Source: a virus. Taken from it: a stretch of 62,327 nucleotides of DNA. The translations under genes were made by a program, and so were the position numbers. Of this stretch, positions 18,561 through 43,860 are shown piece after piece. Each line of letters opens with the position of its first letter. The stretch's first letter is position 1. The notes below the pieces were generated by a model. The model was not told the DNA's origin, made no database searches, and saw only the letters and a list, made by a program, of their open reading frames with translations. The stretch is taken from IMG/VR virus record IMGVR_UViG_3300042542_002992, positions 1-62,327 of that record. The stretch is one strand, 5' to 3'.

Positions 18561-19256
18561 ATGAAAAAAAGTTCATTTGAAGGGTTTGTAGCCCGTTACA
18601 ACTTGGGTGGTGAGGTTGAATCCGTAAAAATCAACTCAACCGATGAAGGAATGTCTGTTCGATTCATCTCCGATGACAAAACCCTATTGGGTAGTGTTGA
18701 GACTGAAGAAAAAGAGTTCCCAAATGGTGAGTTTGGTGTTTACACGACATCACAACTAAAAGGTCTGCTTGGCGTTTTGGATTCTAACGTTAAAGTAGAA
18801 CAAGGTGAGGCATCCTTGGTTTTTTCAGACAATGGTACGTCTGTAAACTATATGTTGGCTGACCTTTCGGTTATTCCTGTAGTTCCCGAATTAAAACAAC
18901 TTCCCGATTTTGGTTCATCAGTAACACTTGATGACGAGTTCGTGGCTAAGTTTATTAAATCTAAAGGTGCTTTGAGTGATTCAGACACATTTACATTTAA
19001 GTGTAAAGGAAACAAAGGTGAGGTGATTTTGGGTTACTCTAAAATTAACTCAAACCGAATCTCTATCAATGTCGAGTGCACGTGTGCTTCTGACGTTGAA
19101 CCAATTTCATTCTCCGCCAAATATCTTAAAGAAATCCTCAATGCTAACCGAGGTGCTAAAGCTTCTTCGTTGAAGATTTCGTCTCAAGGTCTGGCTCATG
19201 TTGCTTTTGAACATGATGGGTTTAAGTCAAACTATTATTTGGTAGAGATTAAGTAA
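18561..19256 (+). CDS. 45: Sliding clamp (gp45-like)
   Basis: A 231-residue DNA polymerase processivity factor that forms a ring around DNA. Its length matches T4 gp45 (228), and it shows the expected alternating beta-strand pattern in two halves separated near residue 110 (VIPVVPELKQLPDF). The C-terminus ends in beta strands HVAFEHDGFKSNYYLVEIK. The stop overlaps the next gene by one base. Assignment is supported by position between the polymerase and gp44 as well as by sequence pattern. Confidence 0.87.
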   Translation: MKKSSFEGFVARYNLGGEVESVKINSTDEGMSVRFISDDKTLLGSVETEEKEFPNGEFGVYTTSQLKGLLGVLDSNVKVEQGEASLVFSDNGTSVNYMLADLSVIPVVPELKQLPDFGSSVTLDDEFVAKFIKSKGALSDSDTFTFKCKGNKGEVILGYSKINSNRISINVECTCASDVEPISFSAKYLKEILNANRGAKASSLKISSQGLAHVAFEHDGFKSNYYLVEIK

Positions 19257-24534: not shown

Positions 24535-25953
24535 ATGCAAGAATTAAAATTACCTAAACTTAAAAAGGTAGACCCAAATCGTCCAAAAAAGAAGAAGATT
24601 CTTTTATTGTCAGATGACTTGAGACTACATAGCGGAATCGCTACACAATCCAAAGAGATTGTTATTTCAACATTACATAAATACGATTGGGTACAATTAG
24701 GCGCTGCCTTAAAACATCCTGACCATGGTAAAGTTTTTGATGTATCTGAAGATGCTTCAAAAGAAGCTGGTATTGAAGATGGTAGTGTTAAGATTTATGC
24801 ACATACGGGATATGGTAATCCCGAAGTTTTACGAGAATTGATAAACGTTGAAAAGCCAGATGCTATCATGCACTTCACCGACCCTCGTTTTTGGGGATGG
24901 TTATATGACATGGAGCTTGAGGTTCGTCAATTCTTACCTATTATTTACTACAATATTTGGGACGATTTACCAGACCCAATGTGGAATGCTCCGTTCTATG
25001 CAAGTTGTGACCAATTGATTTCGATTTCAAAACAAACATATGGTATCAACAAAAGAGTTTTGGAAAAGTATGGTATGCCAAAAGAAGATTGGTGTTACAA
25101 GTATATTCCACATGGTGTATCAAAGATGTTCTATCCATTACCATCAGATGATTCAAATCTTGTTAACTTTAAGAAACAATATGGTCTTGACAAGTATGAC
25201 TTTGTAGTTTTATGGAATAATAGAAACATTCGTAGAAAATCTCCAGGTGACGTAGTTCTTGCATTCAATGAGTTTGCCAAACGTAACCAAGATAAGAAAG
25301 TTTGTTTATTCATGCACACCGAACGTGTTTCAGAACATGGTACTGATATACCTGAAGTAATCAAAATGAATGGTGAGTTTGGTGATTACAAGTTTACAAA
25401 CGGCCCCATGTCAACTCAAGACCTAAATCTATATTATAATTCGGGTGACATCATTCTAAATGTTGGTTCTAACGAGGGATTTGGTTTGGCTTCGTGTGAA
25501 GCTCTACGAGCCGGAACTCCTATTATCGTTAACATTACTGGTGGATTACAAGACCAGTGTGGTTTCGAATTATTTGGATTACCATTGGGTGCCGAAAATT
25601 ATGTAGAGATTGGGTCATTACACAATGATAGAGAATGGAAGGGTTCAAGTGACTTATCTTCAGGTGTATGGTCGTTTCCAGTATGGCCGAGTAATAGGTC
25701 ATTACAAGGGTCTCCGATGACTCCTTATATTTTTGATGACCGATGTGATTATTACGATGTTGCTCTTGAACTTCAAAATGCATTTGAGATGGGTAGAGAG
25801 AAATTAGAAATCTATGGCCAAAAAGGACATGAGTGGGTTATTGGTGATGGTGATATGGCATCTGAAACCATGGGTCTGAAGTTTATTGACGCATTTGAGG
25901 ATTGTTTTAAAAATTGGACACCTCGTAAACGATTTGATATTTATAAAGCATGA
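24535..25953 (+). CDS. GT4-like glycosyltransferase opening the glycan cluster
   Basis: A 472-residue GT-B enzyme. The N-terminal fold begins KILLLSDDLRLHSGIATQS near residue 22, typical of GT4 transferases that take sugar from a nucleotide donor. The donor-site signature NVGSNEGFGLASCEALRAGTPIIV is near residue 310 (EGFGL with the second Glu). The extreme N-terminus carries LKLPKLKK, repeated at the C-terminus of the next gene product. It starts behind a TATTTATTA element and a GAGTTACGAT ribosome site and overlaps the next gene by 4 nt. Confidence 0.85.
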   Translation: MQELKLPKLKKVDPNRPKKKKILLLSDDLRLHSGIATQSKEIVISTLHKYDWVQLGAALKHPDHGKVFDVSEDASKEAGIEDGSVKIYAHTGYGNPEVLRELINVEKPDAIMHFTDPRFWGWLYDMELEVRQFLPIIYYNIWDDLPDPMWNAPFYASCDQLISISKQTYGINKRVLEKYGMPKEDWCYKYIPHGVSKMFYPLPSDDSNLVNFKKQYGLDKYDFVVLWNNRNIRRKSPGDVVLAFNEFAKRNQDKKVCLFMHTERVSEHGTDIPEVIKMNGEFGDYKFTNGPMSTQDLNLYYNSGDIILNVGSNEGFGLASCEALRAGTPIIVNITGGLQDQCGFELFGLPLGAENYVEIGSLHNDREWKGSSDLSSGVWSFPVWPSNRSLQGSPMTPYIFDDRCDYYDVALELQNAFEMGREKLEIYGQKGHEWVIGDGDMASETMGLKFIDAFEDCFKNWTPRKRFDIYKA

Positions 25954-27227
25954 AAAAGTTATGTATAGTTAGTTGCCCGATTGCAACTCGAAGTGGTTAT
26001 GGTTCTCGAGCGCGAGATTTTGTACGTTCACTAATCCAAGTAAAGGGAGAGGAGTGGGACATCAAAATCCTACCTCAACGATGGGGTAATACACCACAAA
26101 CTGCGTTGACTGATGGTATTGATAATGACTTGATTTCACGATTGACAACATCGGTTACACAAAAGCCGGATGTTTGGATTCAGATTACAATCCCCAATGA
26201 GTTTCAACCGGTTGGTAATTTTAATATTGGAATTAGTGCGGTAATCGAAACTGATGCGGCAAGTCCTGCGTTCATCGAAGGTTGTAATAGAATGGACTTA
26301 ACAATTGTATCATCAAATCACTCCAAGAAAACTCTCGAAGTAAGTTATGATAAGTTGGATGAAAATACAAAACAAAAAATTGGTGAGTTAAAATTACAAA
26401 AGCCGGTCGAAGTTTTATTTGAGGGATTTGATGAGAATGTATATGATAATACCAAACCAATTCACAAGTCGGTTAATGATACACTGTCTTCAGTAAAAGA
26501 AGATTTTGCATTCTTATTTGTAGGTCATTGGTTACCAGGTGAGTTGATGCAAGATAGAAAGAACGTGAGTGGTTTGATTAAAACATTCCTTGAAAGTTTC
26601 AAGAATAAAACTAAAAAGCCCGCTCTGATTCTAAAGACATCAATTGTATCACCATCAATCACAAATGTACATGAAATCAAAAAACGTATAGATTTGATTA
26701 AATCTACGGTTGATTCAAAAAATCTACCTAACATTTATATTTTGGATGGTGACCTTTCAGATGATGAAATGAATTCACTATATAACCATTCGAAGGTTAA
26801 GGCTCATGTTTCATTGACGAGAGGTGAGGGTTTTGGTAGACCTCTATTAGAAGCTTGTATTAGTGGTAAACCCATTTTGGCATCAAATTGGAGTGGTCAT
26901 TTAGATTTCCTACATAAAGACTATAATTTCCTTGTTGGTGGTAATCTTGAACAAGTACACCCATCTGCTGCAAATGATTGGATTTTGAAAGAATCTAATT
27001 GGTTTACAATCAATTATAATGAGGTTTCGAACACAATGAAATATATTTATGAAAATCATAACAAGTGTTTGGAAATGTCAAGAAAAAATCGTAAATTTGT
27101 TAAAGACAATTTTACATTTAATAAGATGACCGAACGGCTTGGTGAGATATTAAATAATACAAATGCAGGTAAGGGGCCTCAACAAATGACCCTACAATTG
27201 CCTAAATTAAAGAAAATGAATGGCTGA
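25950..27227 (+). CDS. GT4-like glycosyltransferase
   Basis: A 425-residue GT-B enzyme. It opens with KKLCIVSCPIATRSGYGSRARDF and has the donor-site motif RGEGFGRPLLEACISGKPIL near residue 290, then the NWSGHLDFL loop. The C-terminus ends in LQLPKLKKMNG, echoing the N-terminus of the preceding enzyme but with different codons. The pair is translationally coupled and probably acts in sequence on one glycan. Sugar and acceptor are unknown. Confidence 0.85.
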   Translation: MKKLCIVSCPIATRSGYGSRARDFVRSLIQVKGEEWDIKILPQRWGNTPQTALTDGIDNDLISRLTTSVTQKPDVWIQITIPNEFQPVGNFNIGISAVIETDAASPAFIEGCNRMDLTIVSSNHSKKTLEVSYDKLDENTKQKIGELKLQKPVEVLFEGFDENVYDNTKPIHKSVNDTLSSVKEDFAFLFVGHWLPGELMQDRKNVSGLIKTFLESFKNKTKKPALILKTSIVSPSITNVHEIKKRIDLIKSTVDSKNLPNIYILDGDLSDDEMNSLYNHSKVKAHVSLTRGEGFGRPLLEACISGKPILASNWSGHLDFLHKDYNFLVGGNLEQVHPSAANDWILKESNWFTINYNEVSNTMKYIYENHNKCLEMSRKNRKFVKDNFTFNKMTERLGEILNNTNAGKGPQQMTLQLPKLKKMNG

Positions 27228-27675
27228 TTTTAAAAGTCAACATAGGGTAAGAATGACCGACCCCACTCCGATTTCTAAAAGTAAATTGGAGAGGGGTATG
27301 GTTGCTAAAGTCAGATACAAAAAAGTATCAGGTGACATAGAAGAATATTTTGTATTTGTTCTACAACCAAAGTATATGGATTATTTCCATTGTATCGACT
27401 TGAAATACATCAAACCTAATGTATTTGAAAAGTTAGCGGAAGAATATCCCGAGATAAAAAGTACAAGTTCGAAGGTAAAGAAATTAGATTTAACAAAACT
27501 TCAGATAAACGAGAGTTCAAAACAATTCTACATGGCCGAAATCAAACGTAAAAAGTTGAGTGAAGGTTATAGAACTTTTGTAGAACGTAACATCACATCT
27601 ATAATTGTATTCAATTACAAATATGGTAAGTTTGATAGAATCGCACCCGAACAAGAACGAGAACAAATAGATTAA
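27220..27675 (+). CDS. Hypothetical protein, 151 aa
   Basis: A 151-residue basic protein with beta-rich N-terminal half (GMVAKVRYKK, EEYFVFVLQPKYMDYFHCIDL) and a C-terminal segment YRTFVERNITSIIVFNYKYGKFD. It looks like a conserved phage protein, perhaps virion-associated, rather than a sugar enzyme. It overlaps the preceding glycosyltransferase by 8 nt. No function is assigned. Confidence 0.6.
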   Translation: MADFKSQHRVRMTDPTPISKSKLERGMVAKVRYKKVSGDIEEYFVFVLQPKYMDYFHCIDLKYIKPNVFEKLAEEYPEIKSTSSKVKKLDLTKLQINESSKQFYMAEIKRKKLSEGYRTFVERNITSIIVFNYKYGKFDRIAPEQEREQID

Positions 27676-27679
27676 GATT

Positions 27680-28306
27680 ATGAAAATTAGTTACGCAGTT
27701 ACGGTTTGCAATGAATTGGTGGAGATTCAAACTTTACTACCATTTTTGATAGCATCTAAACAACAACAAGACGAGATTGTTGTATTATTTGATAGTAAGA
27801 ACGGAACTCAAGAAGTAAAAGAATATCTTGAGTCCATGTCGACTCCATCATCGAAATTAAAATGGTTTTCTTATGACTTCGATGGTCATTTTGCAAACAT
27901 GAAAAATCGATTGACACAAGAATGTAGTGGTGATTACATTTTTCAGATTGACGCAGATGAAATCCCACAAGTAGATTTGATGGACAATCTTCATGAAATC
28001 CTAAACATAAATGATATTGATGTAATTCTTGTACCAAGGGTGAACACGGTAGAAGGGTTGACTCAAGAACATATTCAGAAATGGAGATGGAACGTCAATG
28101 AACAAGGGTGGGTCAATTGGCCGGATTACCAATGGAGAATCTATAAGAATTCAGATTCCATTCGTTGGGAAAACAAGGTACACGAAAAACTCGTTGGATT
28201 CGATACAATTTCAAATTTACCAATGGTAGAACAATTATCACTACAACACTCAAAAACTATTGATAGACAAGAACGACAAAATTCGTATTACGAAACCCTA
28301 TCGTGA
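27680..28306 (+). CDS. Family 2 glycosyltransferase, short
   Basis: A 208-residue GT-A domain protein: ISYAVTVCNELVEIQTLL at the start, IVVLFDSKNGT near residue 35, and the metal-binding motif IFQIDADEIPQ near 93. A WPDYQWRIYKN segment, typical of GT2 enzymes with acceptor loop HEKL, follows. It is short for the family but appears complete. A 52-nt gap to the next gene holds only a weak inverted repeat. Confidence 0.82.
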   Translation: MKISYAVTVCNELVEIQTLLPFLIASKQQQDEIVVLFDSKNGTQEVKEYLESMSTPSSKLKWFSYDFDGHFANMKNRLTQECSGDYIFQIDADEIPQVDLMDNLHEILNINDIDVILVPRVNTVEGLTQEHIQKWRWNVNEQGWVNWPDYQWRIYKNSDSIRWENKVHEKLVGFDTISNLPMVEQLSLQHSKTIDRQERQNSYYETLS

Positions 28307-28358: not shown

Positions 28359-30050
28359 ATGTTATTAGATTGTACATTAAGAGATGGTGGTTACTACACC
28401 AATTGGAACTTTGACATTCAAATGGTCAAAGACATGATTCAAGCCCTTGACGCTGCTAGCGTTGATGTGATTGAATTGGGATACAAATCACCCGTAAAAG
28501 GTGGTAAGTTCCGAAAGTGTAACGATAGGTTTATTTGGGAACTCTTGGAATATAGAAAGCCCACAACTTCTCAATTGGCGTTCATGATTGATGCCAAAGA
28601 TTTTATCAAAGGTGGTGATGTTGATTATTCTCTTATTGATGATGTGATTCACCCAAAACGTGAATCTCCATTTTCAATTTGTAGATTGGCTATCAAACAT
28701 TCCGAAATTGACTTATCTTTAAAAATTGGAGAATACGTCAAATCAAAAGGATATGACCTTGCGGTAAACCTAATGGGTATTTCACTTTTAAGTGATGAAC
28801 AAATTAACGAGTTTGGGGTGTTCTCAAAATTAAACCCTATCGCACTTTACTTTGCGGATTCTTATGGAAATCTTGAACCAACACGAACCTGTGAGTTGGT
28901 ATCTTTATTTAAAACTTTTGGGTGTTCGGTTGGGGTTCATACACACGACAACCTTGGACTTGCGTTTGCGAATTGTTTGTCTGCTATGGAAGAAGGAGCC
29001 GAGTGGATTGATGGAACTCTTCTTGGTATGGGTCGTGGTGTTGGTAATGTAAAAACCGAACAATTGATTACCTACCTATATTGGAGACGTGGGTTGTACC
29101 CAAACTCAAAACAAGTTCAGAGAATCGTAACACATTGGATGGCTCCTCTTCAACAAATTCACCAATGGGGATTCACACACAACTACATGGTGAGTGGTTT
29201 AAATCACATTCACCCACTTTATCCACAAGAATTACAATCTTCTATTATAAGTCCAAACCGAATCGAAGATATTCTTTGTTCTATTGAAGACTCGGTTTCG
29301 TATGATTTTTCAAAGATTGAATCACATCTGATTCCAAAGGTGGCTGTTGTGATTCCTGCACGATACAAATCATCAAGATTTCCTGGTAAACCACTTGCCA
29401 AAATCAAGGGTAAGGAAATGATTATTTGGGTTGCTGAAATTGCTGAAAAAGCGGTTGGTCGTGACAATGTTTATATTGCTACTGAAAATGAAGAGATTGT
29501 TGATGTGGTTAAGGGGAACGGGTACAAGGTGGTACTGACTTCAGATTCATGTCCTACCGGAACTGACCGAGTGGCTGAAGCGGCTTTGGAAATTGATGCT
29601 GATATTATTATTAACATTCAAGGTGATGAACCTATGTTGAATCCAAGTGATATCACAAAAGTTATTCAAGAAAAAATTAAACACCCAAATCACGTTATAA
29701 ATTGTATGGCTTATTTGAGTGCCGGTGAAAACGTTGAAGATAAAAAGATTCCAAAAGTTATCACTTCGTTGACCGATGAGTTGATTTATATATCACGAAA
29801 TCCAATTCCTGGAACAAAAACTGGAAATGGAGCAGCTCCTAAAAAGCAAGTTTGTATTTACGGGTTTAATAGAAACGAATTAAAAAAGTTTTCTGATATG
29901 GGTGAAAAAACACCACTCGAATTCGAAGAGGATATTGAAATTATCAGATTTATAGAAATGGGTGTAAAAGTAAAAATGGTTATGTTGAATAGTCAGTCAT
30001 ATGCTGTAGATTACCCAGAGGATATTAATATAGTAGAACGAAATTTATGA
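28359..30050 (+). CDS. Fusion: HMGL-like aldolase domain plus CMP-KDO synthetase (KdsB-like)
   Basis: A single 563-residue frame with two enzymes. Residues 1-320 are a DRE-TIM/HMGL-like aldolase: LLDCTLRDGGYYTNW at the start, then VIELGYKSP, GVHTHDNLGLAFAN and GTLLGMGRGVGN. Residues 327-563 are a KdsB-like cytidylyltransferase: VVIPARYKSSRFPGKPLAKI, TENEEIVD, CPTGTDRVAEA and NIQGDEPML. KdsB makes CMP-KDO from CTP and KDO. The pairing suggests synthesis and CMP activation of an ulosonic-acid-type sugar. Separate genes of these kinds occur together in bacterial polysaccharide loci; fusion is unusual. No stop or frame change interrupts the junction. Confidence 0.85.
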   Translation: MLLDCTLRDGGYYTNWNFDIQMVKDMIQALDAASVDVIELGYKSPVKGGKFRKCNDRFIWELLEYRKPTTSQLAFMIDAKDFIKGGDVDYSLIDDVIHPKRESPFSICRLAIKHSEIDLSLKIGEYVKSKGYDLAVNLMGISLLSDEQINEFGVFSKLNPIALYFADSYGNLEPTRTCELVSLFKTFGCSVGVHTHDNLGLAFANCLSAMEEGAEWIDGTLLGMGRGVGNVKTEQLITYLYWRRGLYPNSKQVQRIVTHWMAPLQQIHQWGFTHNYMVSGLNHIHPLYPQELQSSIISPNRIEDILCSIEDSVSYDFSKIESHLIPKVAVVIPARYKSSRFPGKPLAKIKGKEMIIWVAEIAEKAVGRDNVYIATENEEIVDVVKGNGYKVVLTSDSCPTGTDRVAEAALEIDADIIINIQGDEPMLNPSDITKVIQEKIKHPNHVINCMAYLSAGENVEDKKIPKVITSLTDELIYISRNPIPGTKTGNGAAPKKQVCIYGFNRNELKKFSDMGEKTPLEFEEDIEIIRFIEMGVKVKMVMLNSQSYAVDYPEDINIVERNL

Positions 30051-30643
30051 AGGTTTATTTTGACGTAGGAGCTCATGATGGTAGAGATGGGTTCGGTTCT
30101 TTAATTGGTGCTAAATATCAAAAGTGTTATGCTTTTGAAATTGATAAAAGAATGATTGATAAAATCAAAGGTAGTTCAAAAGTATGGGGGGGCCAATATG
30201 TACTTATTGAAAAAGCGGTTGGTTCTAAAAACGAAACCATGCGTTATACGTCATTCAAAAAATCAAATGTTGGTTCACTTTATGATGTGAATTCCGAATC
30301 TATAAAAGGTAGAGACCCACGGGATTTTGAAATAGTAGATGAATATGATGTTGAAGTTATAACTTTAGCTGATTTCTGTAAAGAAAATAATATAGAGTGT
30401 ATTGACCATTTACACATAGATACCCAAGGAAATGATTATGAGGTAATACTTGGACTTGGGGATTATATTAATATTGTACAATCGGGTGAACTTGAGTGTT
30501 ATGATACTACACAAAACAATTTGTATAGAAACACAACAAACACATTAGAAAATTGTAAAACATATTTAGAAGCTGCTGGATTTGAATGTAGTTTTGAAAG
30601 ACAATCGAACCATGATGGTAATTTAAAATTTAAAAGATTATGA
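30047..30643 (+). CDS. FkbM-family methyltransferase
   Basis: A 198-residue SAM-dependent methyltransferase. The SAM loop is YFDVGAHDGRDG at the very N-terminus, and the acidic strand end is YAFEID near residue 29. FkbM features follow: VGSKNETMRY, the LADFCKEN segment, and the HIDTQGNDYEVI motif near 120. It probably O-methylates a sugar of the glycan made by its neighbours, with which it overlaps by 4 nt on both sides. Confidence 0.85.
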   Translation: MKVYFDVGAHDGRDGFGSLIGAKYQKCYAFEIDKRMIDKIKGSSKVWGGQYVLIEKAVGSKNETMRYTSFKKSNVGSLYDVNSESIKGRDPRDFEIVDEYDVEVITLADFCKENNIECIDHLHIDTQGNDYEVILGLGDYINIVQSGELECYDTTQNNLYRNTTNTLENCKTYLEAAGFECSFERQSNHDGNLKFKRL

Positions 30644-31434
30644 AACAAAAAACAATAGAGTTACAAAACCAAATCCAACAATTTGAATATGTCCATGAGA
30701 GACTTGAATTGTTAAAAAATCAATATGAAGGTGAGACTGCTTATATCATTGCAGCTGGACCATCTTTAAACAATTATTCGATTAATCAATTGAAAAAAAC
30801 ATTGGGTGATAAGTTGGTGTTATGTATCAAACAACCCTACCACAATCTAAAAGATATCACCGACTTTTTGTTTTTGAATTTTACAAACCTATCACCATAT
30901 CAGTTTCAACAAGATACCATCGTATCGTGGGCCTTTTGGTTTAAAAATCATCCCGAAGCAATAGCTCAACAGGGGTGGAAAGCTGATTTGTTATTTCCTA
31001 TTTTTAGGAATGAAAACATTGATAATAAAATCTCACAATCAATAGCATATCAAGGTGATTTTGATAATATTACTTTTGAAAAAAGTTTACCGAGACCATG
31101 GGGACCTGGACTCATGTATGAACTTGCAATCCCAATGGCTTTACATTTGGGGTGTAAAGAAATTGTCACTATTGGTTGGGATATTGGTGATATAAATTTA
31201 TGGAAAAATCCAAATGATGAAGAAGAACGTCATTTTGTAGAACATTTCTATTCACCGGAAACTCCAATGTATGATAAGTTTAAAATGGATGCTGAAGAAG
31301 TAAAGTTGATTACAAAGTCAGTTTCAGACATGAACGCTTATTTAAATTCACAAGGAGTATCGTTCAAGATTGTATCGGATAGAAATCCAGCCGATTTGTC
31401 AGTCCCACGAATTAACTTGGAAGATATAAAATGA
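30640..31434 (+). CDS. DUF115/MptE-like glycan protein
   Basis: A 264-residue protein beginning with a coiled helix, then AYIIAAGPSLNNYSINQLKK near residue 32, the GxGPSL motif of the DUF115/MptE-like family. That family includes the Maf flagellin glycosyltransferases, which use CMP-activated nonulosonic acids. A later CKEIVTIGWDIGD segment completes the Rossmann sheet. In this operon it may be a transferase for the CMP-sugar made by the upstream fusion enzyme; this is inference. Confidence 0.7.
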   Translation: MKQKTIELQNQIQQFEYVHERLELLKNQYEGETAYIIAAGPSLNNYSINQLKKTLGDKLVLCIKQPYHNLKDITDFLFLNFTNLSPYQFQQDTIVSWAFWFKNHPEAIAQQGWKADLLFPIFRNENIDNKISQSIAYQGDFDNITFEKSLPRPWGPGLMYELAIPMALHLGCKEIVTIGWDIGDINLWKNPNDEEERHFVEHFYSPETPMYDKFKMDAEEVKLITKSVSDMNAYLNSQGVSFKIVSDRNPADLSVPRINLEDIK

Positions 31435-31823
31435 AAATAGAAGACTACAACAATCTACAAGGATTTGAAAATGAGACCCAAATTGCTGTAGACTTCGATG
31501 GTGTTATTCATAGAAATTCCAAAGGATTTCATGATGGCACAATATACGATACTCCAATTGATGGTTCTTTGGATGCTATAAAAGAATTACATGACATGGG
31601 TTATACTATCGTAATATTCACGGCAAAGGCAAAAAAAGACAGACCACTCGTAAATGGTAAGACTGGAGAAGAGTTGATTTGGGAGTGGTTGGTAAAACAT
31701 GGTATTTCACAATACGTTAAAGAAGTAACTTCAGAAAAACCAAGGGCAAAGTATTATATAGATGATAATGGTATCAGATTTACAAGTTGGACTGACACTT
31801 TAAATTTGGTTTTATCAAAATAA
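31431..31823 (+). CDS. Small HAD-family phosphatase-like protein
   Basis: A 130-residue HAD protein. Motif I is AVDFDGVIHR near residue 21, motif II VIFTAK near 60, and motif IV YYIDDNG near 107 with a lysine upstream (EKPRAKYY). The first-Asp motif DFDG supports phosphatase activity. It may dephosphorylate a sugar phosphate in the pathway; it is smaller than KdsC. It overlaps the preceding gene by 4 nt. Confidence 0.75.
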   Translation: MKIEDYNNLQGFENETQIAVDFDGVIHRNSKGFHDGTIYDTPIDGSLDAIKELHDMGYTIVIFTAKAKKDRPLVNGKTGEELIWEWLVKHGISQYVKEVTSEKPRAKYYIDDNGIRFTSWTDTLNLVLSK

Positions 31824-31836
31824 TTTTGTATATTAG
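31805..31836 (+). promoter_or_regulatory. Bacteroidota-type promoter inside the glycan cluster
   Basis: TTTG at 31805-31808, within the end of the HAD gene, 20 nt spacer, TATATTAG at 31829-31836. ATG 31852 follows 15 nt later. It splits the glycan genes into two transcription units. Confidence 0.65.
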
Positions 31837-31851
31837 TAAAAATAAATCGTT

Positions 31852-33036
31852 ATGAGAGAACAAATTCCTTTATTTAAAGTGTTTATGAGTCCTACCGCAA
31901 AAGACGAGGTGGGTAAAGTGTTGGATAGTGGTTTCATTGGGCAAGGTGCTGTAGTGGAAAGGTTTGAAAAAGATTTGAGTGAATTTCTTGAAAATGACCG
32001 AGTTTTAACTTTAAACTCCGGAACATCAGGTCTTCATTTGGCGTTACATCTATTAAAAGCTCCAAAGAAATCAACGCAAGTATACCATGGTGTAGCTTCA
32101 GTTGATTCCTATTGGCCTGGATTAGAAGATGGTGATGAGGTATTAGCTACCTCTTTGACCTGTACCGCTTCCAACTTTCCAATTTTGGCTAATAATCTGA
32201 AAATCAAATGGGTTGATATTGACCCAACTACTTTGAATATTGATTTGGATGATTTGGAAAGAAAGTTGAGTCCAAAGACCAAAGTTATTATGTTAGTACA
32301 TTGGGGTGGATATCCAAACGACTTGAATCGTATAAAACAAATTCAAGAAAAATGCCAACGTATGTATGGGTTTAAACCTGCTGTGATTGAGGATGGGGCA
32401 CATTCATTTGGTTCAAAATACATGAATAAACCATTGGGTAATCATGGTAATATCGTAATGCACTCATTACAAGCAATTAAACATATTACTTCAGTCGATG
32501 GTGGTGTTTTGATTTTACCACATCAAGAATTATACAATAGAGGTAAGTTGCTTCGTTGGTATGGTATTGACCGAGATTCGAATAGAAAAGATTTTAGATG
32601 TGAGGCTGATATTACGGAATGGGGTTTCAAGTTTCATATGAATGATGTGAACGCTGCTGTTGGTATTGAAAATTTAAAACACGCAAAAAATATTATTTCG
32701 TCACATAAATCAAACGCAAAGTTTTATGATGACTCTCTGAATGATGTTGCCGGATTGACCACACTAACCCGACACACAGGCCATGATTCAGCATTTTGGA
32801 TTTACTCAATGTTAGTTGATGACCGAGATAGATTTATGAAGTGGATGAAAGAGTGTAATATTATTGTATCACAAGTACACGAACGAAATGACAAACACAC
32901 TTGTGTCCGTGAACATATGTCAGCATTACCACAACTTGATAGAACTATTGGTAAAGTTGTATCCATTCCTGTTGGTTGGTGGGTTAATGACGAACAAAGA
33001 GAATATATTGTTGATTGTATCAAAAAAGGTTGGTAA
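31852..33036 (+). CDS. DegT/DnrJ/EryC1-family sugar aminotransferase
   Basis: A 394-residue PLP enzyme. Features in order: IPLFKVFMSP, LNSGTSGLHLAL near residue 57, EVLATSLTCTASNFPIL, VDIDPTTLNIDL, the EDGAHSFGS motif near 180, and the PLP lysine in SLQAIKHITSVDGGVL near 207. It would transfer an amino group to a keto-sugar nucleotide. This is the enzyme type that prepares amino sugars for nonulosonic acids and other glycans. It has its own promoter. Confidence 0.9.
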   Translation: MREQIPLFKVFMSPTAKDEVGKVLDSGFIGQGAVVERFEKDLSEFLENDRVLTLNSGTSGLHLALHLLKAPKKSTQVYHGVASVDSYWPGLEDGDEVLATSLTCTASNFPILANNLKIKWVDIDPTTLNIDLDDLERKLSPKTKVIMLVHWGGYPNDLNRIKQIQEKCQRMYGFKPAVIEDGAHSFGSKYMNKPLGNHGNIVMHSLQAIKHITSVDGGVLILPHQELYNRGKLLRWYGIDRDSNRKDFRCEADITEWGFKFHMNDVNAAVGIENLKHAKNIISSHKSNAKFYDDSLNDVAGLTTLTRHTGHDSAFWIYSMLVDDRDRFMKWMKECNIIVSQVHERNDKHTCVREHMSALPQLDRTIGKVVSIPVGWWVNDEQREYIVDCIKKGW

Positions 33037-33626
33037 TGTATATAGAACCAAAAATAGAATCTTCTTACTATTGTAGTAACAAGGGAGCTCATCCAAGTAG
33101 AAACTTATTACCATACTTTTATCCAAAAATTGGTAAAGCTATTTATGATGTGATTATGGATAAAAAACCAAAAATTGTTGTAGAGTTTGGTGTATTGAAC
33201 GGATTCTCAACAGTGTGTATTGCACAAGCTCTTCGTGACCTTGGTGGTGGTAAACTTTATTCATATGACCTTTGGGAGAACTACCCATACAAACGTGGTA
33301 ACAAACAAATCGTTTCTGAAAATTTGGAAAAATATGGATTAACCGAATTTGTAGAATTATGTGATGGTGACTTTAACGATTGGTGTTCCGAAAAACATGA
33401 ATGTGACTTACTTCACCTTGACATCAATAATGATGGTAATATTATATCGATGGTCAGTTCTAATATCGATTGGTGTGATGTTCTATTTGAAGGTGGTACT
33501 TATGAACGTGATACTTGTTGGTGGATGGAAGAGTTTAATCGTAGACCAATTACCGATGTCAAAGAAGCAGTTGGTTATAAAGTATTAGTAGAAGAATTTC
33601 CGGGATTGTCAATTATAGAAAGATAA
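33036..33626 (+). CDS. Class I SAM methyltransferase-like protein
   Basis: A 196-residue protein with a SAM-binding strand IVVEFGVLNGFSTVCIAQAL near residue 50 and YSYDLWE near 80. An HLDINNDG acidic loop follows. ATG 33036 overlaps the preceding stop (taATG) and is preferred to an upstream frame extension within the aminotransferase. It likely methylates a sugar of the glycan. Confidence 0.75.
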   Translation: MYIEPKIESSYYCSNKGAHPSRNLLPYFYPKIGKAIYDVIMDKKPKIVVEFGVLNGFSTVCIAQALRDLGGGKLYSYDLWENYPYKRGNKQIVSENLEKYGLTEFVELCDGDFNDWCSEKHECDLLHLDINNDGNIISMVSSNIDWCDVLFEGGTYERDTCWWMEEFNRRPITDVKEAVGYKVLVEEFPGLSIIER

Positions 33627-33627
33627 T

Positions 33628-34530
33628 ATGCCACGTTTTTTTAGAATGTATGGTGAGTCAATCTTTGACCTTGGTGATGTAGAAAGACTTGGGTTTCCAA
33701 TAACTGATGGTTATCAAATTCCAGATGAATATATTGAGTCTGGTAATTTTTTGATAATGAGATTATGTAATGGTTTTGGTGATTGGGGTATAATTTCAGC
33801 ATTACCTCGAAAACTAAAAGAAAAATATCCAAATTGTAAGGTATATGTACCCAGCGTCACTTTGATTAAAAAGATATTTGGGGATTCACATCAATGGAAA
33901 CATTGGCCGAATCCGGAGTTGAATTGTGAACGTGTTTTTGTAAATAATCCATACGTTGATGGCTTTGTTGATACTATTGATGAGGTTGATGTTTTTCATG
34001 ACCACTATAGGGTGTATGACCCTAATAATGAAAACGTATCATTGGTAAAACAAATGATGCTATTTTGGGGATTTTCTGATTCGGAGTGTGTTGACTATTT
34101 GCCGGAATTGTATTTTGACAAAGATGAAATTGAACATGGTGATTCTTTGATTAAAGAATACTTTGGTGATTCCGAATTCGGTGGGTTTATAGCTACAAGT
34201 AGTCAGTTATCAAATGGTAAGTTTTTTGACGACTATAGAAATAAATTAATCATTGATGAGCTAAAAAAACATAATTTAAAGTATGTTTACTATGGTGGGG
34301 TTGATATAAAAGATACACCATTTGCAGACTATGTACAAGTTGGTTTAGATTTTGCAAAAGTCACAACACCACTACGAGTTCAACTTTACATACGTTCAAA
34401 GGCTAAAACAAATATTGGATATCAGAGTTCCATACATGAATTAATTTGTAGATATTCACCAATCGTTTGTACTGAAATGGATGGTGGTCCTCGTGAAAAC
34501 TATTTTGATAATATAACTTATTTGAAATGA
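33628..34530 (+). CDS. GT9-like GT-B glycosyltransferase
   Basis: A 300-residue protein. MRLCNGFGDWGIISALPRKLK near residue 44 matches the nucleotide-sugar/acceptor loop of heptosyltransferase-like (GT9) enzymes. LKYVYYGG and the final GYQSSIHELICRYSPIVC region fit the C-terminal donor domain. It probably adds a sugar to the phage-directed glycan. It overlaps the next gene by 4 nt. Confidence 0.6.
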   Translation: MPRFFRMYGESIFDLGDVERLGFPITDGYQIPDEYIESGNFLIMRLCNGFGDWGIISALPRKLKEKYPNCKVYVPSVTLIKKIFGDSHQWKHWPNPELNCERVFVNNPYVDGFVDTIDEVDVFHDHYRVYDPNNENVSLVKQMMLFWGFSDSECVDYLPELYFDKDEIEHGDSLIKEYFGDSEFGGFIATSSQLSNGKFFDDYRNKLIIDELKKHNLKYVYYGGVDIKDTPFADYVQVGLDFAKVTTPLRVQLYIRSKAKTNIGYQSSIHELICRYSPIVCTEMDGGPRENYFDNITYLK

Positions 34531-35579
34531 AAATAAATAACAAATATATCATAGGAACACATACGATGTTCTATGAAATTGAGATTTTACCGGAGTTTAT
34601 TGACTCTTTAATACAATGCTCAAATGAAGTTGAGAATCCTGAAAACATAACATATGACTTCATATTCAACATTAGCGAATACCTTGAAGGGGTCGATACT
34701 ACACAAACAACAAAGGATAAATTAGTATCAAGATTTGAGTCGGAAATGGTAAGACTATCCAATACAGGTGTTAATGTTAGATACAATGTGTATTCCGATG
34801 ATTCTAAATTATATAGTATAGCAGATTATCGTAGGGATTTCAACTACCACAATTGTTCAGACCATGATTATTTGATTTGGGGTGAAACTGATTCGTTGTT
34901 TCCAAAACAATTGTTTGACTCATTGGAAAGTATTAAAAACTACGCAAATAGTCAGAACATTCACAGATACACTGTTTGGTTTGCTGAACGTAAAATGTGG
35001 GATGCTTCGTGGGCTCCGTTGGAACACATCGACTTTGAAAAGGAAAAATACATCTCGATTAAAGATTTTGCAAACGAAGATGACTACAAAAAGAAAATTG
35101 CAGAGTCTCCACATAGTATTCGATATGTGATGAATCTTGATGAAATGAACGAAATAAATGACCGATATGATGACCTTAACGTTCAGATTTTACAATACCC
35201 AAAATTCAATGGATGTGGTCTTGTAATGAGTTCTGATTTTGTTAAAGCCGGTGTTAATATCCCTCGTGGTATTTTTGGAGTAGTTGCCGAGGATACTGCT
35301 ATGATGATATCCGCTCAGCAGGTCATGGGTAAGGCGTATATTCAGTTCGTAGTCAAAAACATATTGTTGGTTCATAATAGAGAACACACTCGTAAACGTA
35401 TGTATTGTGTTGACAAAGAAACTCATTCGGAAAGTGGGATGGGTGACTCATACCAACATGGAAAAGGAAAGTGGTTTGATAGAATTCTTGATATGTGTAA
35501 ACAAAACGTAAATTTGTTAGGATATAGACAAGACCGATTCTTTACTATTAAGGATTTTGAAAATGAAAATAGAGCTTGA
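34527..35579 (+). CDS. GT-A-like glycosyltransferase, family not recognised
   Basis: A 350-residue protein. A DYLIWGETDSLFP stretch near residue 112 has the acidic metal-site pattern (ETD) of GT-A transferases, and YPKFNGCGLVMSSDF near 220 resembles their acceptor region. The N-terminus KYIIGTHTMFYEIEILPEFIDS lacks a standard GT2 start. Function as a transferase is likely from context but the family is not certain. Confidence 0.6.
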   Translation: MKINNKYIIGTHTMFYEIEILPEFIDSLIQCSNEVENPENITYDFIFNISEYLEGVDTTQTTKDKLVSRFESEMVRLSNTGVNVRYNVYSDDSKLYSIADYRRDFNYHNCSDHDYLIWGETDSLFPKQLFDSLESIKNYANSQNIHRYTVWFAERKMWDASWAPLEHIDFEKEKYISIKDFANEDDYKKKIAESPHSIRYVMNLDEMNEINDRYDDLNVQILQYPKFNGCGLVMSSDFVKAGVNIPRGIFGVVAEDTAMMISAQQVMGKAYIQFVVKNILLVHNREHTRKRMYCVDKETHSESGMGDSYQHGKGKWFDRILDMCKQNVNLLGYRQDRFFTIKDFENENRA

Positions 35580-36333
35580 TTATATAGTTCCCGAACCAAG
35601 TAGAACAGCACCAAACCTAATAGCGGATTTGGATGTATCCGCTAACTATATTGTAGATTTATATAATCAATCAAACATCAATAGACAATACAACGATTTT
35701 CTGAAGGGTAAGTCGGTTGTTATTGTAGGACCTGCTTCTTATTTGGAAGGTAGGGGTTTGGGTGAATTTTTTGATAGCTTTGATGTTGTTGTAAGATTGA
35801 ATCGTTCATTTCCGGTTACCAACACCAATGATTATGGAACAAGATGTGACATCAGATACCATAACATGAGTCAGAATAATGCTCAGGGCGGCCCGTTGGA
35901 TATTGATTTGATGCTCTCATTGGGTGTAAAATATGTTAGTTCACCATTTCCAAAACACATGGATTATTTTCACAATGACATAGTTGAATGTGAACGCCAG
36001 TTAAGTGGTAGTGGTATTGAATTTCACCATTGGTCTGATTTAGAACAATTTTTGACATTTCATATGTTGTTGAATACTCGACCAAACATTGGAACGTGTG
36101 CTATACTTGATTTGTTAAATTATGATATTAAATCATTACACGTTTCTGGAATTACATTTTTTAAAGATGGGTATAATTCACAATATAGTGATAGAGATGA
36201 TGACCTCGTTCCAGCATATCATGCAAATGGAGTTGCTAATCATGCTCAAAAACCACAAAAACAATTAATAAAACTCATTGGAGAATTTGATTCAAGAATC
36301 ACATTTGATGATGAAGTGAAAGATTCTTTATGA
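35563..36333 (+). CDS. GT29 sialyltransferase-like protein
   Basis: A 256-residue protein with sialyltransferase-like motifs. An L-like motif, VVIVGPASYLEGRGLGEFFD continuing to VVVRLNR, spans about residues 49-79. An S-like motif RPNIGTCAILDLLNYD followed by HVSGITFF lies near 175-205, and HANGVANHA near 222 may be the VS-like histidine. GT29 enzymes use CMP-sialic acid; bacterial and phage relatives may use other CMP-sugars. With the upstream KdsB-like CMP-sugar synthetase, a CMP-ulosonate transferase is a consistent reading. ATG 35563 is chosen over TTG 35557. Confidence 0.68.
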   Translation: MKIELDYIVPEPSRTAPNLIADLDVSANYIVDLYNQSNINRQYNDFLKGKSVVIVGPASYLEGRGLGEFFDSFDVVVRLNRSFPVTNTNDYGTRCDIRYHNMSQNNAQGGPLDIDLMLSLGVKYVSSPFPKHMDYFHNDIVECERQLSGSGIEFHHWSDLEQFLTFHMLLNTRPNIGTCAILDLLNYDIKSLHVSGITFFKDGYNSQYSDRDDDLVPAYHANGVANHAQKPQKQLIKLIGEFDSRITFDDEVKDSL

Positions 36334-37286
36334 AAATAGCATTTTTTAGTGAGATGGGGTTTGATGGTAAGATTCCAAGAACTCATACAAACATGAGAGT
36401 TGAGTTTGCTCAAATGTGTGCACTTGGAGCTGACCACTATCCTATGTTAAAAATCCAACAAGTGCAACAAGAATATGATGTTGCTGTACTTTTAGTTGGT
36501 AAGTCCACGAATTTCAGAAATCAAATAGCAAATATTGATGTTGTAAATGAAGCACGCAGATTTGCTAAGAAAGTCCTTTGGATGCAGGAAGGTCCTCATT
36601 GGGTTTTCCAAGATATGCCATTGGAACACCAGTTCTGGCACTACAATGTTCTTGCATCTGCTGATGGATTATTGACTGAAAATAAAACCGACATACCTTA
36701 CTTTAAAGGAATTATGGGTGATGATAAGTGGGTTGTGGATATTCCAAGTTTGATGATTACCGACCTTGTTAATGATGTAGAGTATGCTAATAAAGAAGAA
36801 AAAATAATTATCGGTGGTAATTTTTGCCGATGGTATGGTGGGTTTGATTCATATATTTGTGCCAGAGATTTGGAGATTCCAATTTGGGCGCCATCTATGG
36901 GTAGAAAGATTGAAAACGAAGACCACATTGAGGATATGAACTACTTTCCTTACATGGAGTGGGTCGATTGGATTAAAACTCTATCGTCTTTTAAATACGC
37001 AATCCATTTAATGCCGACCACAGGCGCTGGAACATTTCCAATGAATTGTGCATACTTGGGAATCCCGTGTGTTGCATACAATGATTTGGATACTCAAATT
37101 AATTTACATCCAGACTTATCAGTAAATCCAGGTGATGTTCAGAGTGCTAGAAAACTTTTGAACAAATTAAAGAATGACCCTATCTTTTATAAAGATATGA
37201 GTGATAAAAGTAGATATTTATATAAACAATACCATTCAGAAGAATCGTTTCTATCTGATATTAAAAAGAAGTTACAAACATTATGA
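36330..37286 (+). CDS. GT-B glycosyltransferase-like protein
   Basis: A 318-residue protein. It begins MKIAFFSEMGFDGKIPRTHTNMR, has a strand VAVLLVGKS near residue 52 and VLWMQEGPHW near 88. The donor-side region is YAIHLMPTTGAGTFPMNCAYLGIPCVA near 235. These features fit GT-B transferases acting on surface glycans. It overlaps both neighbours by 4 nt within the cluster. Confidence 0.65.
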   Translation: MKIAFFSEMGFDGKIPRTHTNMRVEFAQMCALGADHYPMLKIQQVQQEYDVAVLLVGKSTNFRNQIANIDVVNEARRFAKKVLWMQEGPHWVFQDMPLEHQFWHYNVLASADGLLTENKTDIPYFKGIMGDDKWVVDIPSLMITDLVNDVEYANKEEKIIIGGNFCRWYGGFDSYICARDLEIPIWAPSMGRKIENEDHIEDMNYFPYMEWVDWIKTLSSFKYAIHLMPTTGAGTFPMNCAYLGIPCVAYNDLDTQINLHPDLSVNPGDVQSARKLLNKLKNDPIFYKDMSDKSRYLYKQYHSEESFLSDIKKKLQTL

Positions 37287-38470
37287 TTACAAAAAGCGAT
37301 ATTAGTTTTATCCAACCATCAAGAAACAATTTAAAATACTTAAAATGGTCTTACGATGCTATTCGTAAAAATGCCGGAAGTGAACCTCACATTTGTGTAG
37401 CGGATGATTTTAGTAATGATGGTACTTGGGAGTGGTGTCAAGAAATGATGTCAACCGACCCAAACTTTCACGCAATCCGTAACGAAGGACCTACTCGATT
37501 GGGGCATACTATTTTATATGACCGATTAATCAATGAGGTTGCACCTACAAAGATTGTTGGTATTTATCACGCTGATATGTGGTTGTGTCCTGGTGCTCTT
37601 GAGTCGGTGTTAGAACACATCAAACCTATGACTGTGGTATCATTAACTCGTATTGAACCTGACTTACACCCACCGGGACCGGAGAAGGTATTGATTAACA
37701 ATGCCCCAACCGAGCCGGAGAATTTTGATGAAGATTGGTTCATGGAATTCTTTAACAATTACTTACCAACGGTTAAGAACAAAATAACTGATGGTATATT
37801 TGCTCCTTGGTTTTTATTCAAAGAAGATTTTCAATCTATCGGCGGCCATGACCCATTGTATGCTCCGCAATCAAAAGAGGATTCAGATATCTTTAATCGA
37901 TTTTTACTAAATGGATATCAGTTTGTTCAAACTTGGGAAGGGTGTGTGTTTCATTTGACTTGTAGGGGTTCACGATTTAATCCAACATTGACTACTCCAG
38001 GTACCAACTCCAATGAGTGGGAAGCTCAGAATATTCGTTCAAGTCGTAACTTTATTCGTAAGTGGGGGCATTTTGTAAAACACGATGTTCAATTAAAACC
38101 AATCATTCCTCACAAATATGATATCGAATTTGAAGTAGCAAATTGTAATCTCAAGATGATTGAAGCATTAGAACCTTGGTGTGATAGAATGACACTTGAT
38201 TGTTCTCAAGAAGTTATTAATAGTTACATTCAAAGTGAACAACCAAACACTAAATTTGATTTATCAAAGAAGTTCAATACGAATGATAAATCAGACATTA
38301 TAGTACAATTTGACGCACAACGAATGACAAATCAGTCATTTCAGTTTATCCAAAATATGTCAGAAATATTTGATTTCAATCAATTTGAGATTGGTCAGTA
38401 CGAATTCGACATATTTAATATTAAGGTAAATCGTATAAAACACTACGAAGACGCCCTTATAAAATTATGA
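37283..38470 (+). CDS. Family 2 glycosyltransferase with C-terminal extension
   Basis: A 395-residue GT-A enzyme: SFIQPSRNNLKYLKWSY at the start, CVADDFSNDGTWEW near residue 39, GIYHADMWLCPG (HAD/DxD-like metal site) near 93. The GGHDPLYAPQSKEDSDIFNRF motif near 190 is typical of family 2 enzymes with a GHDE-type acceptor loop. About 120 residues at the C-terminus are of unknown function. It is the last glycan gene of the run. Confidence 0.83.
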   Translation: MITKSDISFIQPSRNNLKYLKWSYDAIRKNAGSEPHICVADDFSNDGTWEWCQEMMSTDPNFHAIRNEGPTRLGHTILYDRLINEVAPTKIVGIYHADMWLCPGALESVLEHIKPMTVVSLTRIEPDLHPPGPEKVLINNAPTEPENFDEDWFMEFFNNYLPTVKNKITDGIFAPWFLFKEDFQSIGGHDPLYAPQSKEDSDIFNRFLLNGYQFVQTWEGCVFHLTCRGSRFNPTLTTPGTNSNEWEAQNIRSSRNFIRKWGHFVKHDVQLKPIIPHKYDIEFEVANCNLKMIEALEPWCDRMTLDCSQEVINSYIQSEQPNTKFDLSKKFNTNDKSDIIVQFDAQRMTNQSFQFIQNMSEIFDFNQFEIGQYEFDIFNIKVNRIKHYEDALIKL

Positions 38471-41705: not shown

Positions 41706-41954
41706 ATGGCATTTTGGGACATTTTCAAAGACAAAAATGATTTTAACGAGAAAACTATCGTAGGTTTTCTATCATTCACAGTAATGGCTATTTTCGCCGG
41801 AGCTGACATCGTAACTGGTATTATGGGTAATCAACTCATCATTAGCGACACGATTTTTAATTCGTTCGTAATGATTACCTTGGGTGCTTTTGGTATCGCT
41901 GAAGCTGGTAAGATTTTCGGTGGTAAAAAGAACAACGAAGAATCAGAGGGATAA
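41706..41954 (+). CDS. Two-span small membrane protein, holin-like
   Basis: An 82-residue protein with two hydrophobic segments (about 17-39 and 45-68) and a charged C-terminus, a class II holin topology. It could also be a membrane partner of the exported proteins downstream. Strong ribosome site; the next gene starts 5 nt after its stop. Confidence 0.6.
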   Translation: MAFWDIFKDKNDFNEKTIVGFLSFTVMAIFAGADIVTGIMGNQLIISDTIFNSFVMITLGAFGIAEAGKIFGGKKNNEESEG

Positions 41955-41958
41955 TTTC

Positions 41959-43860
41959 ATGAAAAAATTACTCGTATTGTTAACTACAATATGGGTGAGT
42001 GTGTCAGCGTTTGGGCAGAATGGTAAGAACGAAGTTCTCCCTGCCCCCGCTTCGAGCTCTCCATATTTCTTGATTGATACAACGTTTGTTCAAGGTTCAA
42101 AACTTGAAGATACAACTGTTGTTTATGTTCACTTTAACAATCCAACATCAAATAAAATCACCGGTATTCAGGTTAGATTCTTTTATGATAATGTTAACTT
42201 CAAAACTCCGATTGTAAAGTGGGGTCCGGTTGCTACAGCAGTATCGTCAAAGTATGGTGCTTACTATTCATCTTCAGATTGGGTGAACGTGAACTTAATT
42301 TATACCGGAAACTCATCTACATTCGGATGGTCTAATGGTGCTATATTCATGGTAAAGTTACCACATAAATCAACCTTTGACCCTGCTACTGTAGATTCTT
42401 TGATGGTGACCGGTACTACTACATACAATAACCTTGCTACCACAAGTGCCGGTATTGACGTTAGTTTAGGTATGTTTTCATATGGTGGTGCTTTCTTACA
42501 ACCTACTTTGAAATTCCCATTCATTGTTAAAAACGTTCAGAACGGAGCTACAAAAGGAATTACCGCTAAATACCACTACAAAAAGAAGGCAGCTTCAACT
42601 TGGTCTGCTGGAACTTCATTTAGGACCGATTCTACCGGTAAAGCTATTATTGAAATCCCATACGACACATCATACTACAATGTTAAGTTGACTATTGCTA
42701 CTGATTCATTAAAAGATGGTAGTGCTATTTCTATTGTAGACGCATATAGATTGGCTGATATTGCAGTACAATCCGATACCGCAACTTCATACGAATATCA
42801 AGAAGGTGATATCAACCGCAGTGGTACGTTAACAACATCTGACGCATTCTTGGTATTTAATCGTTTAGCAAAAATGGATACTACTTGGAATGTTCTTGTA
42901 TCGGGTGAACACAACGTTAAATTATTAAGAAAAACTGAATATGATTCTATCGTTGCTACTCCATCTACATTCTTAACATCAAAAGTTGGTGTATACACAA
43001 TCGACAAATCTATCAATGGTTTGGATTCATTAAAATATCATTCTTACGTTTTGGGTGATGTAACTTCTACTGGTTATAATACCACATCATTCTTGGTAGC
43101 TAAAATTGCTCAAGGTGGAAGTGGTACACAATATGTTCTTGACCAACAAAGAATGATTCAACACATCGATGATTCAGTTCAGTTTGTGATTCCTAAACTA
43201 AACGTATCAGGTGATAACACCGCTACCATTCCTGTAACCTTGGTTACTCATGGTAACTCTATTGGTGCTGCACAAATTGGTCTTGAGTTTGATACAAATA
43301 TCTTTGAATTCGAATCATTGGATATGGGTGAGACTATGAGTCGTTGGACATCATTCCTTGCTAATCAAGATGGTAAGATTTTGTGGGGTGGTCATGAATC
43401 TCAAATGGACCCTGCTCTTGTAACTGGCACAACTAACGTATTTACTTTCAAGTTTAGAATCAAATCTACAAACTGGGAAGAAAGTCCTATTAGAGTATTC
43501 TCAAAGGCTGCTGGTGATGAGACTGCAAGTGATTTAAATATTATTAGAACTCCTGTAGATGCTACTGTTGTCTATAGAAGAGGTAAGAGTGAATTGTTGG
43601 ACGAGTTAGTAGATGGATTTAGAACATTCCCTAACCCAGCCACCGATTATATCTTGGTTGATTACTACATGGCTGAACAACACAAATTGTCAAGTGGATT
43701 ATTCACACTTGATGGTCAGTTGTTACAACATAACGAGGTTATCAATCAGGGTGGTGTTACAAGCACCAAATATGATTTGACAAAATTACCTACCGGTGTG
43801 TATGTGTTAATGATGTCAACTGATACAAAAACCAAATTTTACAAAATCGTTAAATATTAA
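41959..43860 (+). CDS. Secreted cohesin/dockerin-like protein with T9SS C-terminal sorting domain
   Basis: A 633-residue exported protein. The signal peptide is residues 1-20 (LLVLLTTIWVSVSAFG). Beta-sandwich regions resembling cohesin modules cover about 35-190 and 410-530. Between them is a dockerin-type calcium loop, GDINRSGTLTTSDAF near 283. Residues about 557-633 form a type A T9SS sorting domain: FRTFPNPATDYILVDYY, LFTLDGQLL, LTKLPTGVYVLMM, TKFYKIVKY. In Bacteroidota that domain directs cargo through the type IX secretion system to the cell surface. ATG 41959 is chosen because it starts the signal peptide. A phage gene with this signal is unexpected. Confidence 0.85.
   Translation: MKKLLVLLTTIWVSVSAFGQNGKNEVLPAPASSSPYFLIDTTFVQGSKLEDTTVVYVHFNNPTSNKITGIQVRFFYDNVNFKTPIVKWGPVATAVSSKYGAYYSSSDWVNVNLIYTGNSSTFGWSNGAIFMVKLPHKSTFDPATVDSLMVTGTTTYNNLATTSAGIDVSLGMFSYGGAFLQPTLKFPFIVKNVQNGATKGITAKYHYKKKAASTWSAGTSFRTDSTGKAIIEIPYDTSYYNVKLTIATDSLKDGSAISIVDAYRLADIAVQSDTATSYEYQEGDINRSGTLTTSDAFLVFNRLAKMDTTWNVLVSGEHNVKLLRKTEYDSIVATPSTFLTSKVGVYTIDKSINGLDSLKYHSYVLGDVTSTGYNTTSFLVAKIAQGGSGTQYVLDQQRMIQHIDDSVQFVIPKLNVSGDNTATIPVTLVTHGNSIGAAQIGLEFDTNIFEFESLDMGETMSRWTSFLANQDGKILWGGHESQMDPALVTGTTNVFTFKFRIKSTNWEESPIRVFSKAAGDETASDLNIIRTPVDATVVYRRGKSELLDELVDGFRTFPNPATDYILVDYYMAEQHKLSSGLFTLDGQLLQHNEVINQGGVTSTKYDLTKLPTGVYVLMMSTDTKTKFYKIVKY

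Follow-up and report, generated by a model that had tools for sequence, protein, structure and literature searches.

A fused aldolase and CMP-sugar synthetase in a T4-like phage and its probable part in a route to a CMP-activated ulosonic-type sugar

Why would a virus carry an enzyme that activates a sugar with cytidine monophosphate (CMP), and from where would that sugar come? The question is raised by a run of genes at positions 28359-36333 of the IMG/VR virus record IMGVR_UViG_3300042542_002992, a stretch of 62,327 bases that is referred to here as the window. The original prediction had proposed that this locus makes, activates and transfers an ulosonic-acid-type sugar, by means of a KdsB-like synthetase within a fusion protein, a DUF115 protein, a GT29 sialyltransferase-like protein, a DegT aminotransferase, a HAD phosphatase-like protein and two methyltransferases; scans against Pfam, PHROG and NCBIfam recovered every one of these genes in its place. 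The main idea is probably right, and the CTP and metal motifs of KdsB are kept, but the list of parts has to be redrawn around an aldolase, the HAD protein and the DUF115 protein. The window probably encodes a phage-borne route to a CMP-activated sugar of the ulosonic type.

The key protein of the locus is a fusion (28359-30050; this and all other genes of the run lie on the + strand), whose C-terminal half (residues 327-563; 29337-30050) is a KdsB-type CMP-ulosonate synthetase domain. CTP_transf_3 (PF02348) matches residues 329-535 at 5.8e-39, and the best structural matches of this half are synthetases of CMP-Kdo (Kdo, 3-deoxy-D-manno-oct-2-ulosonic acid), down to 4e-38. The fusion passes the cut-offs of two KdsB subfamily models (NF009905, 272.6 versus 255 bits; NF003952, 235 versus 193), but misses those of the Kdo equivalog models TIGR00466 (127.8 versus 155.2) and NF003948 (151 versus 281). 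The motifs IPARYxSSRFPGKPL, GTDR, QGDEP and VDYPED are present, and the motifs for cytidine triphosphate (CTP) and metal are retained in every aligned viral copy. The canonical segments KHxGIY and ESLEQLR are absent: all phage copies have KQVCIY (as in the window) or KQICIY together with EDIEI, whereas canonical KdsB copies in the same alignment retain [KR]HxGxY. These changes are common to the phages and the nearer aldolase-linked cellular copies. Both segments belong to the C-terminal part of KdsB, which is where Kdo is bound and the dimer forms (PMC3149649), and the altered segments therefore give a weak indication that the sugar is something other than Kdo itself, an indication weakened by the RHVGIY kept in some Clostridial copies of the bacterial gene cassette described below.

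The partner of this domain, which the original prediction left unnamed although it had recognised the KdsB-like fusion correctly, is a metal-dependent DRE-TIM/HMGL-like class II aldolase domain (residues 1-285; 28359-29213), for which we propose a role as a 3-deoxy-2-ulosonate synthase. HMGL-like (PF00682) matches residues 2-244 at 6.6e-29; in the PDB the closest solved structure is 3dxi (5.7e-42), a single-domain protein that its depositors named just 'putative aldolase', and DmpG is also matched (1nvm, 8.3e-20). The R-D pair after strand 1 and the HxH metal ligands that mark DRE-TIM metallolyases and class II pyruvate aldolases are both found, in columns that coincide with those of DmpG, and R8, D9, H194, H196 and N198 are invariant in the phage copies and in the alignment with the cellular cassette enzymes. 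The DmpG/BphI 4-hydroxy-2-oxovalerate aldolases, which share the fold family and the metal motif, are the nearest characterised relatives. The aldolase half differs from them in being joined to a CMP-sugar synthetase, with no acylating dehydrogenase partner seen, and in carrying a Tyr for a His; its score against the model for DmpG proper (TIGR03217) is 91.7 bits versus a cut-off of 286. By definition, 3-deoxy-2-ulosonic acids are 4-hydroxy-2-oxo acids, and hence of the product type of a DmpG-like aldolase. The N-terminal half is most likely the 'make' step of the pathway, so that an aldolase and a CMP-ulosonate synthetase, both with their catalytic motifs, would be united in a single chain.

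The fusion is not confined to the window. Another 28 IMG/VR loci have it, at 46-83% identity (27 full-length, one clipped by a contig end), and it is therefore no assembly artefact. Sorted by similarity and gene order, the viral loci fall into 11 groups, with the window counted together with locus L002, which retains most of its gene order. Hidden Markov models (HMMs) built from relatives of the window genes detected, within the stored flanks, a small HAD protein in nine of the 11 groups and a DUF115 protein likewise in nine, often adjoining the fusion or each other. The GT29-like gene is confined to the group of the window and L002, a close DegT relative occurs in two groups, and the methyltransferases vary between phages, the FkbM-type gene at 30047-30643 not being kept beside the fusion. 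These counts define a core of fusion, HAD and DUF115; the GT29-like gene, both methyltransferases and, for the most part, DegT are variable accessories. In the divergent virus L022, a NeuB, a NeuA-like cytidylyltransferase, an RraA-like protein and a histidine phosphatase lie between the fusion and DUF115 (L022 9713-13333), an independent sign of CMP-ulosonate handling in this neighbourhood. A search of INPHARED returned no full-length fusion and no relative of the GT29-like or DUF115 proteins.

The DUF115/MptE-like protein (30640-31434; PF01973, 1.1e-9, 38.8 bits versus a cut-off of 34.6) is the proposed CMP-ulosonate transferase. Its sequence alone found no match in a phmmer search of the PDB. 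An AlphaFold2 (AF2) model built from 13 sequences, with a predicted local distance difference test (pLDDT) score of 82 and a predicted template modelling (pTM) score of 0.87, has Maf 5mu5 as its best Foldseek match (E 4.1e-4). In VIA-align, Maf is matched over 199 residues that correspond to its residues 258-510, the Cst-II-like central domain. At 264 versus 632 amino acids, the phage protein comprises this central part only, without the N-terminal Rossmann-like and C-terminal helical domains of Maf. VIA-align Z scores rank Maf highest (12.3), ahead of archaeal HPPK (10.3), Cst-I (10.1), Cst-II (9.8), GT29 enzymes (about 8-9) and thiamine pyrophosphokinase (TPK; 7.5), before a drop to about 4. 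The predicted structure thus supports the earlier assignment of this protein to the Maf type. PF01973 is also the family of the central, Cst-II-like domain of Maf, and one Maf protein has been reported to accept both CMP-Kdo and CMP-N-acetylneuraminic acid (CMP-Neu5Ac) (PMC11339370). The predicted fold supports a CMP-ulosonate transferase.

The third core gene encodes the small HAD protein (31431-31823), a putative ulosonate-phosphate phosphatase. Its Pfam matches are all below cut-off, yet phrog_1238 matches at 6.5e-19 and the DxD, T/S, K and DD motifs are intact, in agreement with the phosphatase-like character first ascribed to it; DFDGV, FTAK, EKPRA and YIDD, or close variants, are conserved in the phage copies.

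In bacteria, the aldolase and the CMP-sugar synthetase are separate genes, and no fused protein was found in the sampled genomes. The cellular aldolase is mostly about 480-545 amino acids long, with a C-terminal domain that gives weak MptE-like matches and bears GPG/GFDG motifs recalling DUF115. A profile comparison of this domain with phage DUF115 reached 87% probability, limited to 62 columns about the GPSL motif, and the two are likely to be homologous. Near the long aldolase lies a CMP-sugar synthetase gene and mostly also a HAD_2 phosphatase. The cassette of Alteromonas hispanica has in addition a separate DUF115 protein, matched by the phage HMM at 5e-87 (that protein being included in the HMM) and by direct BLAST at 34% and 2e-24. 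The strength of the linkage was measured in 369 Gammaproteobacteria, which were searched with an aldolase alignment before the surroundings were fetched, a procedure that avoids picking loci by linkage. All seven long aldolases had CTP_transf_3 at a distance of one or two genes, compared with one of 13 short aldolases within the fetched stretch (Fisher p = 1e-4), and a HAD gene lay beside six of the seven, the contig ending at the seventh. Among 296 Bacteroidota genomes, the nine long aldolases examined all had CTP_transf_3 within about three genes and a HAD close by, although three of these nine genomes were also ranked by a match to the KdsB half and are less independent. Some genomes have a KdsB-type and others a NeuA-type synthetase; what the aldolase accompanies is therefore the CMP-ulosonate step rather than a particular synthetase subfamily. 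One gammaproteobacterial cassette (L141) also holds, at 725-1486, a second and unrelated pyruvate-type aldolase, HpcH/HpaI (6.7e-34), placed between the long aldolase and a NeuA-type synthetase; a 254-amino-acid gene occupies that spot in L163. The literature searched, which covered few subscription papers and no bioRxiv preprints, contained no description of an HMGL-like aldolase together with a CMP-sugar synthetase.

Is the aldolase then the ulosonate synthase? NeuB and KdsA are the established enzymes for this step. Searches for NeuB gave no match in the cassette genomes of Idiomarina (G002), G257, G371, G061, G574, G488 and G430, and in G257, G371, G061, G574 and G488 the cassette lies on a single contig of about genome length. 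In the Gram-positive Rossellomorea (G004), the KdsA and NeuB families both match only one 365-amino-acid, DAHP-synthase-like frame. With no NeuB in several cassette genomes, the aldolase is the only synthase candidate found for the cassette, and by this argument from absence and linkage it is most likely the ulosonate synthase. Ulosonic acid synthases otherwise belong to the NeuB/KdsA class or to the class I aldolases. We see an even chance that DRE-TIM pyruvate aldolases form a third class, independent of phosphoenolpyruvate (PEP), within a widespread bacterial cassette, and that a lineage of T4-like phages captured this cassette and joined its synthase and its activating enzyme in one protein for glycan remodelling.

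The phylogeny of the two halves bears on how the fusion arose. The phage fusions form a single clade in the tree of the KdsB half (95/92) and again in that of the aldolase half (99/98). In the former, the sister group of this clade consists of cassette copies from Alteromonas, Idiomarina and Pelagibacteraceae (99/96), and a branch of 92/87 separates the aldolase-linked copies from the canonical KdsB that these Alteromonas and Idiomarina genomes also carry; on this tree, we reject the idea that the PF02348 linkage reflects mere canonical Kdo synthesis. The sampled phage fusions have a single origin, and the simplest account is that the cassette was captured and then fused in a phage ancestor.

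We consider it reasonably likely that these genes turn pyruvate and an aldose, or an aldose phosphate, into a 3-deoxy-2-ulosonate, then a CMP-ulosonate, and finally a virion or host glycan. The core would supply four functions, two of them fused. The DRE-TIM aldolase would add the enolate of pyruvate to this aldose, phosphorylated or not, and so form a 3-deoxy-2-ulosonic acid or the corresponding phosphate; the HAD protein would take off the phosphate, where one exists; the fused KdsB-type domain would join the ulosonate with CTP to yield the CMP-sugar; and DUF115, with its Maf/Cst-II-like fold, would move the sugar from CMP onto its acceptor, either a surface glycan or a protein of the virion. 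These substrates, the order of steps, the acceptor and the biological role are suggested by the domains and their neighbours, and the sugar need not be Kdo. The GT29-like protein, the aminotransferase and the methyltransferases would be phage-specific extras, perhaps for a second transfer step or for decoration of the glycan.

Several observations weigh against this proposal. The activities of the fusion are, for every member, proposed ones. Tyr12 of the aldolase half stands at the position of the catalytic His of DmpG (H21), so that protons may be transferred by another mechanism. DUF115 and HAD each went undetected in the stored flanks of two viral groups. DUF115 also resembles HPPK (Z 10.3), and a relationship to HPPK and TPK is an alternative for it, although its neighbourhood favours a transferase. 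Small HADs of the window type may be common in phages generally; the Pfam types of the phage protein (small, HAD-III-like) and of the cellular cassette enzyme (HAD_2) differ, so that it is perhaps the function, and not the gene, that both have in common. As for the synthase, NeuB is present as well in the cassette genomes G001, G200, G068, G381, G578 and G579, the KdsA search covered G001-G008 only, and completeness was judged from contig sizes alone.

Other explanations can be offered for the same genes. The KdsB half might make CMP-Kdo from host Kdo and so boost host-type lipopolysaccharide or capsule, with an aldolase half that works on an unrelated small molecule or as an ulosonate-recycling lyase, aldolases being reversible. 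The KdsB subfamily models passed and the CMP-Kdo synthetases at the top of the structural matches speak for this. Yet the Kdo equivalog models are missed, KHxGIY and ESLEQLR are altered, Alteromonas and Idiomarina have a separate canonical KdsB, and the constant linkage or fusion to an aldolase is left without explanation; we consider it unlikely. A phosphonate-type pathway, with phosphonopyruvate as the substrate of condensation by the HMGL-like enzyme and a phosphonate as the compound that the cytidylyltransferase activates, has a single point in its favour, namely that HMGL-like synthases and cytidylyltransferases occur in phosphonate pathways. The search for PEP mutase lent it no support: there was no match in the cassette genomes G371, G200, G061 and G381, matches elsewhere lay outside the cassette, and none was found among the scanned window proteins. 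As the cytidylyltransferase is moreover of KdsB or NeuA type, this explanation is very unlikely indeed.

It has also to be asked whether one dedicated pathway for a modified ulosonate comprises DegT, HAD, the methyltransferases, KdsB and GT29, the last as the transferase, as the original prediction had it. The genes do stand in one packed, same-strand run, most of whose order is kept in L002, and the plant GT29 RCKT1, suggested as a CMP-Kdo transferase (PMC11288761), is a precedent for GT29 enzymes with Kdo-like donors. Against it stand the occurrence of GT29 in one of the 11 viral groups and of a high-identity DegT in two, the varying methyltransferases, and the character of the proteins themselves. 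The DegT/DnrJ/EryC1 protein (31852-33036) is an aminotransferase as predicted (PF01041, 1.6e-67), but it matches no curated ulosonate-pathway enzyme, scoring far below cut-off for the nonulosonate-pathway equivalogs PseC (198.6 versus 423.5) and LegC-type (149 versus 420); its PDB matches (4zwv, 7.9e-114; 4zas CalS13, 6.3e-102) are AtmS13/CalS13-type sugar aminotransferases. Both methyltransferases are confirmed, the FkbM type by PF05050 (2.4e-10) and TIGR01444 (61.5 bits) and the class-24 domain protein (33036-33626) by PF13578 (7.6e-13). The GT29-like protein (35563-36333; PF00777, 8.5e-6) does exceed the family cut-off (25.8 versus 23 bits), but weakly and over one motif-sized stretch, residues 49-129 with the first sialylmotif (L) only; a profile match to ST6Gal1 (E 0.0057) covers residues 54-133, again motif L. 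By eye, PNIGTCAIL, H220 and H227 resemble motifs S, III and VS, outside any profile match, and both His are kept in L182. Two viral scans gave no close relatives beyond L002, L182 and near-identical contigs, phmmer with the sequence alone found no match in the PDB, and the 296 Bacteroidota genomes held two sub-cutoff GT29 matches only; the AF2 model, from an alignment with just two distinct relatives, has a pLDDT of 32. A dedicated pathway of this extent seems to us quite improbable.

The proposed aldolase-based route resembles two known systems without coinciding with either. With KdsA-KdsC-KdsB-WaaA it has in common the order of functions (carbon-carbon bond formation, HAD, KdsB, transferase) and a homologous KdsB; it differs in having a DRE-TIM aldolase, fused to KdsB, for the PEP-dependent KdsA, a DUF115/Maf-like transferase instead of WaaA, and changed substrate-side KdsB signatures. 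With NeuB-NeuA and Maf it would share the handing of a CMP-ulosonate to a PF01973/Cst-II-like transferase, and a NeuA-type synthetase is found in many of the cellular cassettes; the window cluster and several cassette genomes, however, are without NeuB, and a pyruvate aldolase is the proposed synthase.

The run as a whole is tightly packed. Between 28359 and 31823, each open reading frame shares four bases with the next, an arrangement like that of a translationally coupled operon. Further along lie two proteins without a Pfam, PHROG or NCBIfam match, at 33628-34530 (kept in L002, with a 31% match in L009/L010) and at 34527-35579 (with relatives of 31-35% downstream of DUF115 in several phages). 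More glycosyltransferase-like genes lie on both sides of the module, at 24535-28306 and 36330-38470 (+), and the order of the upstream set is kept across many related viruses. The window has a T4 gp43-type DNA polymerase, with 48.5% identity to the nearest named phage. In a 658-residue protein (41884-43860, +), a cohesin domain (2.3e-8) is combined with a type IX sorting domain of the Por_Secre_tail family at the C-terminus (5.5e-8), which suggests a host among the Bacteroidota. The window also encodes, all on the + strand, a phage-borne GroEL-type chaperonin (59713-61320; phrog_5725, 1.3e-162), a Mom-family DNA-modification protein (12673-13434; PF25680, 5.4e-46) and, among replication genes, a protein matching the DruA (Druantia) domain (19256-20443; PF14236, 4.9e-25).

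Ulosonic acids, among them Kdo and the sialic, legionaminic and pseudaminic acids, have a central place on bacterial surfaces; genome screens for them commonly use NeuB and KdsA. If the proposal is right, such screens overlook ulosonate producers, some Gram-positives included, and the NeuA-type genes of NeuB-less genomes would be explained. An enzyme that makes and activates the sugar in a single chain would be a useful biocatalyst, and phages would bring their own acidic-sugar chemistry.

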